This document shows positions 1-2,200 of a DNA stretch of 64,000 bases, piece by piece; positions within the stretch are counted from its first letter, which is position 1; each line of letters starts with the position of its first letter. A program made the position numbers and the translations under genes. This stretch comes from Flavobacteriales bacterium (GTDB lineage Bacteria; Bacteroidota; Bacteroidia; Flavobacteriales_D; Sanyastnellaceae), in the NCBI GenBank assembly GCA_018402085.1, contig JAGYJM010000002.1, positions 2,495,501-2,559,500 on the forward strand. The letters are read 5' to 3'. The notes beneath the pieces were generated by a model. The model was given only the letters and a program-made list of their open reading frames with translations. It made no database searches and was not told the origin of the DNA.

Positions 1-26
1 CGGGTTGAGGGAGGGGTGTGTTGGTT

Positions 27-1003
27 TTTCACCGGTGCATCATTGCGCCCGTCCAACCTCGGTGATCGCAGATAGGGACGCCTCCCAGGCGTCCGTGCAC
101 ACGCAACGATACCCGATATTATGTGTAAACAATCCTTCTTCCAAAGTAGGAGCCCCTATCCGTACAAACCAATATTCCCGTCAACCGATCATTCACGGAC
201 GCCTGAGATGGCGTCCCTATCCGTAAGAACCAATATTCCCGCCAACCGAACATTCACGGACGCCTGGGATGGCGTCCCTATCCGTACAAACCAAAATTCG
301 TGTCAACCGAACATTCACGGACGCCTGGGAGGCGTCCCTATCCGTACAAACCAAAATTCCCGTCAACCGAACATTCACGGACGCCTGGGAGGCGTCCCTA
401 TCCGTACAAACCAAAATTCCCGTCAACCGATCATTCACGGACGCCTGGGAGGCGTCCCTATCCGTGAAAACCAATATTCCCGTCAACCGATCATTCACGG
501 ACGCCTGGGAGGCGTCCCTATCCGTACAAACCGAAATTCGCGTTGACCGATCATTCACGGACGCCTGGGAGGCGTCCCTATCCGTGAAAACCAATATTCC
601 CGTCAACCGAACATTCACGGACGCCTGGGAGGCGTCCCTATCCGTACAAACCAATATTCCCGTCAACCGATCATTCACGGACGCCTGGGAGGCGTCCCTA
701 TCCGTACAAACCAAAATTCGTGTCAACCGAACATTCACGGACGCCTGGGAGGCGTCCCTATCCGTACAAACCAATATTCCCGTCAACCGAACATTCACGG
801 ACGCCTGGGAGGCGTCCCTATCCGTACAAACCAAAATTCCCGTCAACCGAACATTCACGGACGCCTGGGAGGCGTCCCTATCCGTACAAAACCAAAATTC
901 CCGTCAACCGAACATTCACGGACGCCTGGGAGGCGTCCCTATCCGTGAAAACCAATATTCCCGTCAACCGATCATTCACGGACGCCTGGGAGGCGTCCCT
1001 ATC
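27..1003 (+). repeat. Class I-A palindromic array 1 (60-bp period)
   Basis: Tandem array with an almost exact 60-bp period. A head of about 145 bp carries one hairpin in inverted orientation (76-94). It is followed by 14 direct copies of the palindrome GGACGCCTGGGAGGCGTCC (8-bp arms, GGG loop), from about 198 to 995. The interval between palindromes is a nearly constant linker of about 40 bp (tccgtacaaaccaaaattc...), with a few linked variant positions. The first two direct copies are degenerate (an extra T or A in the loop), and one linker near 891 has a 1-nt insertion. Long open frames run through it on both strands only because 60 is divisible by 3. It lies 3' of the RAYT gene at 999-1499. 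This is a non-coding REP-like array. Confidence 0.93.
35..50 (+). repeat. Class II hairpin in the array 1 head
   Basis: GGTGCA-TCAT-TGCGCC, one mismatch in a 6-bp stem. It is the counterpart of the perfect copy at 1573-1588, inside the duplicated head shared by the two arrays. Confidence 0.7.
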
Positions 1004-1499
1004 TATTGACACGATTGGTCGGGGTGGCGCGCAAGGATGCGCGCCGAGGGTTGTTTCGCACATATTCGGATGCCGCATCAATGGCAGCCTGTGTGAATAG
1101 GATTTGATCGTGGTAACGGGCTTGCCATTTAAATGTGGGATGATCCTCTTTCAGTCGAGATGTTACGGCGGATTTGAAGCTTCGAATCACAGAGCCCAGG
1201 TTGTTGCGTTGCGGGCCAAAGCGACCACTCCCCGATGATACCATTGACTTCGACTTTCGGAAATGGACAATACCGTGGATGTGATCAGGCATGACGATAA
1301 AAGCACCTAATTCCACATCAGGAAAAAAAGTTGGGGTGGCGAACCATCGGTCTTTAACCGTTTCTCCTATTGGATTGAGGTACATTCTGCCTCCTTCGAG
1401 AACACCGAAACGTAAGTCTCGTGAGCTCAATCGAATTGTAACCAGATATGATGCTGTTTGTCCATAATCCCACTCCGGTTTTCGAATGCTCCTTTTCAT
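999..1499 (-). CDS. REP-associated tyrosine transposase (RAYT, Y1/HUH family)
   Basis: Single-strand DNA transposase of the IS200/IS605-like Y1 superfamily, RAYT branch. Characterised members bind and cleave REP hairpins. The 166-residue protein starts at MKRSIRKP, matching the start of the paralogue at 23402; the open frame extends 32 codons further but without homology. The HUH motif is PDHIH (His73, His75). The RAYT hallmark WQARYHD is at 125-131 and the probable nucleophile Tyr146 is in EYVRNNP. By ungapped hand alignment it is about 55% identical to the second RAYT. The gene sits between two class I-A arrays. Its last codons read through a class II hairpin (1026-1045), and its TAG stop lies in the CCCTATC edge of the last array palindrome. 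All key residues are present, so activity is plausible. Confidence 0.9.
   Translation of the reverse strand: MKRSIRKPEWDYGQTASYLVTIRLSSRDLRFGVLEGGRMYLNPIGETVKDRWFATPTFFPDVELGAFIVMPDHIHGIVHFRKSKSMVSSGSGRFGPQRNNLGSVIRSFKSAVTSRLKEDHPTFKWQARYHDQILFTQAAIDAASEYVRNNPRRASLRATPTNRVNR
1026..1045 (+). repeat. Class II hairpin, left border of RAYT 1
   Basis: GGCGCGCA-AGGA-TGCGCGCC, perfect 8-bp arms. It lies inside the 3' end of the RAYT coding region and encodes part of the basic tail RRASLRA. It is in inverted orientation to the hairpin at 1573-1588. Confidence 0.85.
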
Positions 1500-1564
1500 T
1501 TTTACCCACCAAATAGGGCATTTTTCAGAGCGATTTGACATCCATTTTACGAATGACGGGTTCT

Positions 1565-2120
1565 TTTTCACCGGCGCATCATTGCGCCCGTCCAACCTCG
1601 GTGATCGCAGATAGGGACGCCTCCCAGGCGTCCGTGCACACGCAACGATACCCGATATTATGTGTAAACAATCCTTCTTCCAAAGTAGGAGCCCCTATCC
1701 GTACAAACCAAAATTCGTGTCAACCGAACATTCACGGACGCCTGGGAGGCGTCCCTATCCGTACAAACCAAAATTCGTGTCAACCGAACATTCTCGGACG
1801 CCTGGGAGGCGCCCCTATCCGTACAAACCAAAATTCCCGTCAACCGATCATTCACGGACGCCTGGGAGGCGTCCCTATCCGTACAAACCAAAATTCGTGT
1901 CAACCGAACATTCACGGACGCCTGGGAGGCGTCCCTATCCGTGAAAACCAATATTCCCGTCAACCGAACATTCACGGACGCCTGGGAGGCGTCCCTTACC
2001 GTACAAACCAATATTCCCGTCAACCGATCATTCACGGACGCCAAGATGGCGTCCCTATCCGTGAAAACCAATATTCCCGCCAACCGAACATTCACGGACG
2101 CCTGGGAGGCGTACCTATCC
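1565..2120 (+). repeat. Class I-A palindromic array 2
   Basis: Second copy of the array module, 5' of the RAYT gene. The head (1565 to about 1710) matches the head of array 1 (27 to about 173) with one visible substitution, and includes the inverted palindrome at 1615-1633. Seven direct copies with 60-bp period follow, up to about 2118. The last copies are degenerate (CCAAGATGGCG; GGCGTACC). The duplicated head shows that the array arose as a module and was copied to the other side of the transposase gene, or the gene inserted into it. Confidence 0.93.
1573..1588 (+). repeat. Class II hairpin, right border of RAYT 1
   Basis: GGCGCA-TCAT-TGCGCC, perfect 6-bp arms; it is the inverted partner of 1026-1045. 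It lies about 75 nt upstream of the RAYT start codon. Confidence 0.85.
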
Positions 2121-2142
2121 AATGCCGCCATAAAACCACAGC

Positions 2143-2191
2143 GTCGCAAATATGCGACACCACCCATTTCCATGTGCGCACTGCAGTGCGC
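2143..2191. repeat. Two hairpins between array 2 and obg
   Basis: The first is a class II hairpin GTCGCA-AATA-TGCGAC (2143-2158). The second is a perfect 16-nt palindrome GCGCACTGCAGTGCGC (2176-2191). The second ends 10 nt past the obg stop and could serve as its 3' mRNA structure, although no T tract follows. Confidence 0.7.
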
Positions 2192-2200
2192 GCTTACCAT

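Follow-up and report, generated by a model that had tools for sequence, protein, structure and literature searches.

The window analysed here is a stretch of 64,000 nucleotides (C2:2495501-2559500; positions within it carry the prefix w) from a flavobacterial genome, G000, of 3.78 Mb in two contigs that is 99.96% complete. Its first 2.2 kb carry a gene for a transposase associated with repetitive extragenic palindromic (REP) sequences, a REP-associated tyrosine transposase (RAYT) gene that we call rayt 1, enclosed by two tandem arrays of hairpins with a period of 60 bp. Tandem Repeats Finder (TRF), applied to the window, gives 14.1 copies for the left array (93% match, score 1456) and 7.1 copies for the right array (90% match, score 681), in agreement with the 14 and 7 hairpins that an earlier note, made from the letters alone, had placed on the two sides of the gene. 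The array head is duplicated and nearly identical, as the same note had it: the two heads (w27-173 and w1565-1710) agree at about 99% across 146 bp, and the similarity of each to eight other heads in the genome is 75-80% over 83-109 bases.

The terms inverted and direct refer throughout to the orientation of one and the same REP class, the head REP lying on the plus strand and the array REPs on the minus strand. An orientation scan finds, in both arrays, a single plus-strand REP and then minus-strand REPs exclusively; the inverted hairpin GATAGGGACGCCTCCCAGGCGTCC occurs in each head, and the direct units, CGGACGCC..GGCGTCCCTATC, run in the opposite orientation to it. This is the arrangement that the note had reported for each side, amended in one respect, namely that head and array hairpins belong to one REP class, read on opposite strands. 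Both heads hold a second class of hairpin as well. Folded as DNA, the inverted REP of the left head forms an 8-bp stem with a 3-nt loop at -9.5 kcal/mol, complete REPs fold at -9.1 to -9.5 kcal/mol, and the second-class hairpin at w1026-1045 folds at -12.6 kcal/mol (z -4.4); a single 60-nt unit cut through the hairpin shows no excess folding stability (z about -0.8). At gathering score the Rfam models find three tRNAs only in the window, the arrays being covered by no curated RNA family. An array of clustered regularly interspaced short palindromic repeats (CRISPR) was ruled out, the would-be spacers being conserved portions of the repeat unit.

The frame of rayt 1 is intact. The minus-strand open reading frame (ORF) spans w999-1595, its first possible start being a TTG at 1595; the favoured start is the ATG at w1499, which would give a product of 166 residues matching the paralogues. 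The stop codon, TAG (w999-1001), falls in the GATAG foot of the last REP of the left array. The product has the motifs DHIH (HUH), WQ and YVRNNP, with a HUH-Tyr distance of 74, and both marks of RAYT (TnpA_REP) membership, the HUH motif and a single catalytic Tyr in a Y..NP context, are present. Its best RAYT relatives are Bacteroidetes records, which together with the proteins bearing a type IX sorting tail close to other arrays indicates the Bacteroidota. Set against the published motifs of group 4, subclass 2.4 (NH[IFV]H, WQ, YIxNNP), it has DHIH, WQ and YVRNNP, and subclass 2.7 ([ND]HVH) suits the motif set about as well. The canonical GT[AG]G foot of subclass 2.4 is seen neither at RAYT 1 (GATAG) nor at a second RAYT of the window, RAYT 2 (GAGAG); a GTAG foot is present at C1:84866 and C2:2965260 of the same genome and at two congener loci. 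Because the motifs fit 2.4 and 2.7 about equally and the foot deviates, we file RAYT 1 as a RAYT and its locus as a REPtron, tentatively of group 4/subclass 2.4, an assignment made on motifs. The other RAYTs of the genome are at most 55% identical to RAYT 1 and are therefore no recent copies.

The order of the genes around the locus is kept in four relatives (G001, G002, G003 and G007): two genes that we take to be E1 dehydrogenase-like and psuG-like, a 177-codon gene, obgE and adk. Synteny is incomplete, in that a 548-codon gene between the E1-like and psuG-like genes has no match in the four relatives. The convergent stop codons that lie 2,201 bp apart here are separated by -4, -4, -33 and +11 bp in the relatives. 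The two modules, each a head with its array, and rayt 1 are best read as an insertion lacking at the syntenic site in all four relatives examined, and the empty sites that the note had proposed to look for in other genomes do exist. Insertion is preferred because loss from all four relatives, though possible, takes more steps. The insertion may reflect movement of the whole element with its transposase, as in the IS200/IS605 type, but the divergence of the other RAYTs of the genome leaves no recent copies of it. The features of the locus are collected in the table.

Table. Features of the rayt 1 locus, in window positions
Feature	Position	Strand	Remarks
Insertion	1..2200	.	Flanked by the 177-codon gene, whose end lies immediately ahead of the window's start, and by obgE (w2201-3205, minus)
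Left module head	27..153	+	Hairpin w34-49, 21 nt, inverted REP w71-94, spacer of about 60 nt
Second-class hairpin, left head	34..49	+	From sequence; has a G.T pair, hence no match in the core scan; its counterpart at w1573-1588 has the core
Inverted REP, left head	71..94	+	GATAGGGACGCCTCCCAGGCGTCC; foot GATAG + GGACGCC TCCCA GGCGTCC
Left array	154..1003	-	14.1 x 60 bp; REPs on minus strand; TRF, unit and orientation comparison
rayt 1 (REP-associated HUH/Y1 transposase)	999..1499	-	166 aa from ATG 1499
Second-class hairpin GGCGCGCATCCTTGCGCGCC	1026..1045	-	Within the 3' end of the rayt 1 ORF; 24 nt from hairpin end to REP motif
Right module head	1565..1692	+	Hairpin w1573-1588 and inverted REP w1610-1633
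Second-class hairpin GGCGCATCATTGCGCC	1573..1588	+	Upstream of rayt 1
Inverted REP, right head	1610..1633	+	GATAGGGACGCCTCCCAGGCGTCC; pairs with the last left-array REP (w980-1003, minus) around rayt 1, feet inward
Right array	1693..2120	-	7.1 x 60 bp; TRF, unit and orientation comparison
Second-class hairpin, GTCGCATATTTGCGAC on minus strand	2143..2158	-	Ends the right module; from sequence

Across the genome the REP family, defined by the pattern ATAGGGACGCCN5GGCGTCC with at most two mismatches, has 222 matches, compared with none in each of five relatives (G001, G002, G003, G007 and G008); since the reversed control has none anywhere, the signal is far above chance. Orientation was determined for 194 of the 222, in fetched stretches picked largely for holding arrays. 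With a cluster taken as two or more REPs whose neighbours lie within 260 bp, at least 186 of these 194 are clustered (a floor) and eight are single. Twelve clusters are 60-bp arrays of at least six REPs, holding 6 to 35 REPs and reaching about 34 copies, or 2 kb, in length. In 11 of the 12 there is a single inverted REP, which invariably stands at the head, the exception being at C2:1056k, and a 211-bp array with six REPs has no single inverted head REP. By the definition of a REPIN, a REP doublet of two inverted REPs with their feet outward, the head REP (+) and the REPs (-) that follow it qualify in the same 11 arrays. The REPIN-like, inverted-then-direct layout suspected in the note is a real signature, and the module is REPIN-like rather than a plain REPIN, its second arm being multiplied.

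The module is dispersed in the genome without a RAYT. Head-plus-array modules off RAYT 1 lie at C2:100-110k (three), 2212-2223k (three), 2357-2363k (two) and 2283k (one). At five of the eight similar-headed modules (99.7k, 104.6k, 2218k, 2223k and 2363k) a full or partial copy of a type IX-sorted gene stands just past the tail, and because these five adjoin copies of one such gene, the eight appear to be partly segmental copies. Tandem and dispersed copies of a type IX-sorted gene pair occur near 60-bp REP arrays at L038:9322-15625, L045:6534-14281 and L048:6119-9019; the larger gene of the pair has an S74 chaperone domain in three of four pairs scanned, and the copy at C2:101605-102243 has in-frame stops. 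The arrays may help to copy type IX-sorted genes. Around the best G002 match (48%) of the larger gene, which lies beside several of the modules labelled B, only 7-, 14- and 27-bp arrays are found.

Comparison of the unit sequences distinguishes three subfamilies, 0.71-0.78 identical between each other and 0.84-0.95 identical within arrays. At RAYT 1 the mean unit identity between left and right arrays is 0.923, compared with 0.930 within the left and 0.900 within the right, and the unit types recur in the two arrays in different order and number; the two arrays are one pool of units. Elsewhere, a nine-unit run is repeated with one unit altered in the 2363k array, and a three-unit run is repeated in the 99.7k array. 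Such repeated runs are the footprint of repeated block gain, whether via recombination, slippage or the enzyme.

The second hairpin, with the core GCATnnTTGC, stands upstream of many REPs that carry a foot, on the same strand. In the fetched stretches a foot-REP motif follows 89 of 120 such cores, always at 24-30 nt, measured from where the 14-base core ends, and with a peak at 26-27 nt; the mirror-image position on the opposite strand has it in none of the 120. The other 31 cores have no REP in that span, and counted by distinct context 56 of 84 have one. In the random control stretches alone, a foot-REP comes after 9 of 16 cores, where the density of the motif would predict about 0.1%. The REPs preceded by the second hairpin belong to several stem classes. 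A stricter form of the hairpin, GCCGCATNNTTGCGGC, occurs 89 times in the genome and not at all in eight relatives, the reversed control having 15 matches in the genome. Arrays at L220:1400-2602, L221:1692-3304, L222:2307-2897 and L223:2426-3457 consist of units of about 159-194 bp, each containing one or more REPs together with a second-class hairpin, and some of them also hold a run of 7- or 8-mers.

Double-hairpin ends occur at RAYT genes as well. At five of the six RAYT loci of the genome a hairpin-REP pair stands on either side of the gene, the feet pointing inward and the hairpin proximal to the gene, with the hairpin at -88 to -104 and the REP at -134 to -146 from the start. Both hairpins have the core at four of these five loci, and both are without it at C2:2965260. 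Three of five congener loci have two downstream hairpins 46-51 nt apart, of another hairpin class, two of the three loci being orthologues; no such downstream pair was found at four loci from other genera. Among 57 RAYT loci elsewhere (the 58 described below minus one near a short contig end), at least one hairpin lies within 130 nt downstream at 19, against 2.2 expected, and two downstream hairpins 40-55 nt apart are found at four, against 0.00 in mononucleotide shuffles. In these four pairs one hairpin is a copy of the other or the two are mutually alike, so that no distinct second hairpin was found outside the genus among the 57 loci.

Each of several RAYTs has its own REP type beside it. 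RAYT 1 and RAYT 2 (w23402-23866) are sisters (support 0.998, 55% identity). The RAYT 2 REP, GAGAG-GGACGGC-TCCCA-GCCGTCC, lies on both sides of its gene, 15 of its 17 exact copies being at its own locus. Compared with the RAYT 1 REP it has one stem pair changed in a compensatory way and one different base in the foot, the loop TCCCA being identical. In the region w23135-26279, RAYT 2 is flanked on both sides by arrays of its own REP, of 59 bp and 247 bp, the REPs being inverted around the gene; it is a second case of the phenomenon within the window. A broken RAYT on C1 has the REP GTAG-GGACGCAC-CTC-GTGCGTCC, and a G002 RAYT at 259927 adjoins an array of GATAG-GGGCACGCATGCGTGCCC. This last pattern, which is nearly self-complementary so that many hairpins are counted on both strands, has 51 strand matches in G002, 16 in G001 and none in the genome under study, G003, G007 or G008. 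The closest RAYT matches in the five relatives reach 49% identity over the core, with a 61-residue piece at 52% in G003, and RAYT 1 and its 222-match REP family co-occur in one genome only.

Arrays accompany RAYT loci more often than chance placement would give. The genome has six RAYT places, one of them broken. A tandem array (period at least 12, at least 2.5 copies, score at least 100, within 1 kb) is present at all six, compared with 12% of random 600-bp placements in 200 kb; palindromic arrays, by a stem rule, are present at four of six, compared with 5.3%, where C2:3455583 passes through a non-REP stem and the strict count is three of six. Leaving out RAYT 1, which was the starting point, the counts are five of five for tandem and three of five by rule for palindromic arrays. 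The array units at the six loci measure 60; 59 and 247; 45; 44 and 56; 21; and 20 bp. In G002, one of three RAYT loci has an array, with control placements at 18.3% (tandem) and 2.1% (palindromic). For 58 RAYT loci from public records of many phyla, short partial matches included, 11 palindromic arrays were found close to the match (on it or up to 1 kb away, 132 kb in all), as against 2 in the 413 kb farther out (p 8e-6; far zone from 1.5 kb of the match, in-gene arrays counted as near, as at L107), a density about 17 times higher near the gene, to which eight of the 58 loci contribute. Palindromic arrays stand on both sides of the RAYT at L083 and L097, and at L107 one is upstream and one within the gene. 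Sixteen loci from the same order show the same but weaker trend (six with arrays, p 0.003; two palindromic, p 0.058). The note had called long regular arrays at a RAYT unusual, which holds for their length (copy numbers of 14, 7 and as many as about 34), for their single orientation and for the residence of most known REP copies in arrays; palindromic arrays as such, however, are not rare in this RAYT clade (8 of 58 loci).

Some of these loci are of interest in their own right. At C2:3455583 (L053:2918-3466) the 44-bp array repeats half the palindrome only, with an intact hairpin at its gene-proximal end. The RAYT at L054:4916-5879 has three in-frame stops, yet a 45-bp array of 9.5 copies with 96% match adjoins it, the array outliving the gene. 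In a Bacteroidales metagenome-assembled genome (L107:6270-6470) four palindromes lie within a rayt, between the HUH and Tyr motifs, and leave its reading frame unbroken, the HUH-Tyr distance being 147. Tandem repeats of many different periods abound in the genome, also near contig ends, and runs of 7- or 8-base units and tandem repeats of 250-280 bp stand between genes at w30871-31052, w32766-32946 and w54943-56278 and in L037, L039 and L055.

We regard the locus as most likely a system of a known kind amplified in an unusual form. In the reading that we hold to be probable, if well short of certain, it is a REPtron, tentatively of group 4/2.4, whose REP ends have been multiplied into modules through RAYT 1 acting on its cognate REP together with recombination. 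The product of rayt 1 would be a single-strand HUH/Y1 nuclease and GATAG-GGACGCC-TCCCA-GGCGTCC the REP that it uses; we further infer that RAYT activity, beyond slippage alone, builds the arrays. The gene would have begun between two inverted double-hairpin ends, each with a second hairpin and then, some 25 nt outward, a REP foot, the feet pointing toward the gene, and each end would have grown into a module of one REP one way and n REPs the other way, 60 bp apart. In IS200/IS605 elements the hairpins of the left and right ends are both read on one strand, and because of this direct REPs provide same-strand pairs every 60 nt, which inverted REPs do not. IS200/IS605 transposition is strand-specific and proceeds on single-stranded DNA (PMC8266576). 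RAYT 1 could nick a REP on single-stranded DNA, for example on the lagging-strand template, with neighbouring same-strand REPs serving as a left-end/right-end pair as in IS200/IS605. Segments of whole units might then be excised, or rejoined at another REP, so that units are gained, lost and moved, while ordinary unequal recombination between units would spread and homogenise them.

This reading is favoured by the expansion of the REP family here and its absence from the five relatives, the arrays at RAYT loci in this and other genomes, the sister relation of RAYT 1 and RAYT 2 with their closely similar REPs, the common pool of units, the inward-facing REPs with a hairpin next to the gene at five of the six RAYT loci, and the precise insertion relative to the relatives. 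Several points weigh against it. RAYT 1 falls below the cut-offs of the relevant models, scoring 45 bits (E 9.6e-12) with NCBIfam REP_Tyr_transpos NF047646, where the cut-off is 80 bits, and 20.9 bits with Pfam Y1_Tnp, where it is 23 bits; a PDB sequence search found no relative, its one chance match having E 0.87. The GATAG foot departs from the canonical GTAG. In E. coli the cleavage site is a CT dinucleotide; next to the REP the unit has no conserved CT, its sole one being in the hairpin loop. Nine of the modules lie away from RAYT 1, and eight modules outside that locus resemble mutual copies, which leaves about three independent origins. RAYT and REP do not always go together, and strict pairing is weakened, because G001 has the G002-type REP and no close match to that RAYT is listed there. 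At same-genus RAYT loci arrays are near in one of six cases (p 0.24, not significant), tandem arrays without any RAYT are plentiful in the genome, and the 21-bp array at C2:1643151 is not palindromic. The repeated blocks of the 2363k array are such as slippage or unequal crossing-over would produce.

How the second module arose is a separate question, and here a tandem duplication of module plus rayt after which one rayt was lost, or the entry of rayt into an already existing array, with the module itself immobile, is a serious possibility, if not one that we would put first. The heads are about 99% identical to each other and 75-80% identical to other heads, both modules have the same orientation, and they have unit types in common, all as duplication would have it; yet four other RAYTs of the genome have inverted hairpin-REP ends without a second whole module, and the ends that flank the gene look ancestral. 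Since it concerns the origin of the second copy, duplication can be compatible with RAYT-driven multiplication of the ends.

More doubtful is the proposal that replication slippage and unequal recombination alone made the arrays, hairpins stalling the fork and repeats misaligning, with the RAYT having seeded the first REPs only. The abundance of other tandem arrays in the genome, including 7-/8-mers and 21- and 51-bp units, speaks for it, as do the block duplications within the 2363k and 99.7k arrays and the nine modules distant from RAYT 1. It does not explain why palindromic arrays are some 17 times denser at RAYT genes across the 58 loci, unless seed REPs are themselves denser near the gene, nor why RAYT 1, RAYT 2, the broken C1 RAYT and one G002 RAYT each have arrays of their own REP type.

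The opposite extension, somewhat more speculative still, is that direct REP arrays are the working form, from which the RAYT would peel off and re-insert multiples of 60 nt as single-stranded circles. The second hairpin, which precedes the foot by about 25 nt, would form part of a double-hairpin end, and the array would act as a reservoir for dispersed REPs. Were this true it would answer how RAYTs spread REPs, a mechanism stated as unsolved in PMC8266576.

That the arrays are kept for a function, as gyrase or nucleoid sites, terminators or RNA stabilisers, with the RAYT incidental, seems improbable. Such roles are described for E. coli REP and BIME (bacterial interspersed mosaic element) sequences in PMC2817692 and PMC8266576, and the insert does sit between two convergent genes, but the site is empty in all four relatives, so that the neighbouring genes there do not need an array, and the twelve arrays vary between 6 and 35 REPs. 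An assembly artefact, in which a repeat was collapsed or duplicated, is very improbable: such repeats are hard to assemble and the locus is known from assembled sequence rather than reads, but the genome is in two contigs and nearly complete, unit order and number are not the same in the two arrays, similar arrays stand at independent loci and in other genomes, and a gene lies between the arrays inside an insertion that the relatives lack.

The locus is a good place to study the spread of target repeats by RAYT enzymes. One genome supplies several RAYT-REP pairs, countable array units, a site that is empty in relatives and a defined two-hairpin end, and for these reasons units gained and lost can be counted as a direct readout. 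The case also shows that most of a REP family in a bacterium may be organised like a satellite, and counts of singlets and doublets would describe such a family poorly.

Among known systems, the closest are the REPtrons of RAYT group 4, subclass 2.4, as presented in PMC6006769, which are abundant in Bacteroidetes and have REPs on both sides of and inside their genes. RAYT 1 resembles them in its HUH, WQ and Y..NP core, its Bacteroidetes host and its REPs on both sides, and L107, a relative of RAYT 1, has REPs in the gene between HUH and Tyr, a hallmark of 2.4 (PMC6006769). It differs from them in having DHIH in place of NH[IFV]H, a HUH-Tyr distance of 74 compared with a median of 88, the feet GATAG and GAGAG at RAYT 1 and RAYT 2, long direct REP arrays, and a second hairpin at near-constant spacing (PMC6006769). 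In Pseudomonas fluorescens SBW25 a cluster of a distinct repeat lies beside each of three RAYTs, with REP clusters of up to twelve, and its REPIN clusters are likewise tandem repeats that include flanking sequence (PMC3116915). The SBW25 clusters, however, are of ordered REPINs, the largest consisting of four plus one REP over 700 bp, whereas the arrays described here are of REPs in one orientation, up to about 34 copies in 2 kb, with one inverted REP at the head (PMC3116915). BIME-2 at E. coli yafM similarly has REP clusters on both sides of the rayt and inverted REPs around the gene, but BIMEs alternate in orientation and the RAYT 1 arrays do not (PMC2817692). The terminal inverted repeats (TIRs) of P. 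putida 607 and P. fluorescens 4255 combine a GTAG unit with another hairpin at the ends of the RAYT gene, in hundreds of copies; there the GTAG units are degenerate, whereas in the present genome the REPs are intact, come from several stem classes and follow a single hairpin class in the same direction at a near-constant distance (PMC3733652). As far as our searches of the open-access literature go, what is new is the long one-orientation REP array with a single inverted head REP, a REP family that resides largely in arrays, and one hairpin class that stands at near-constant spacing before REPs of several classes.

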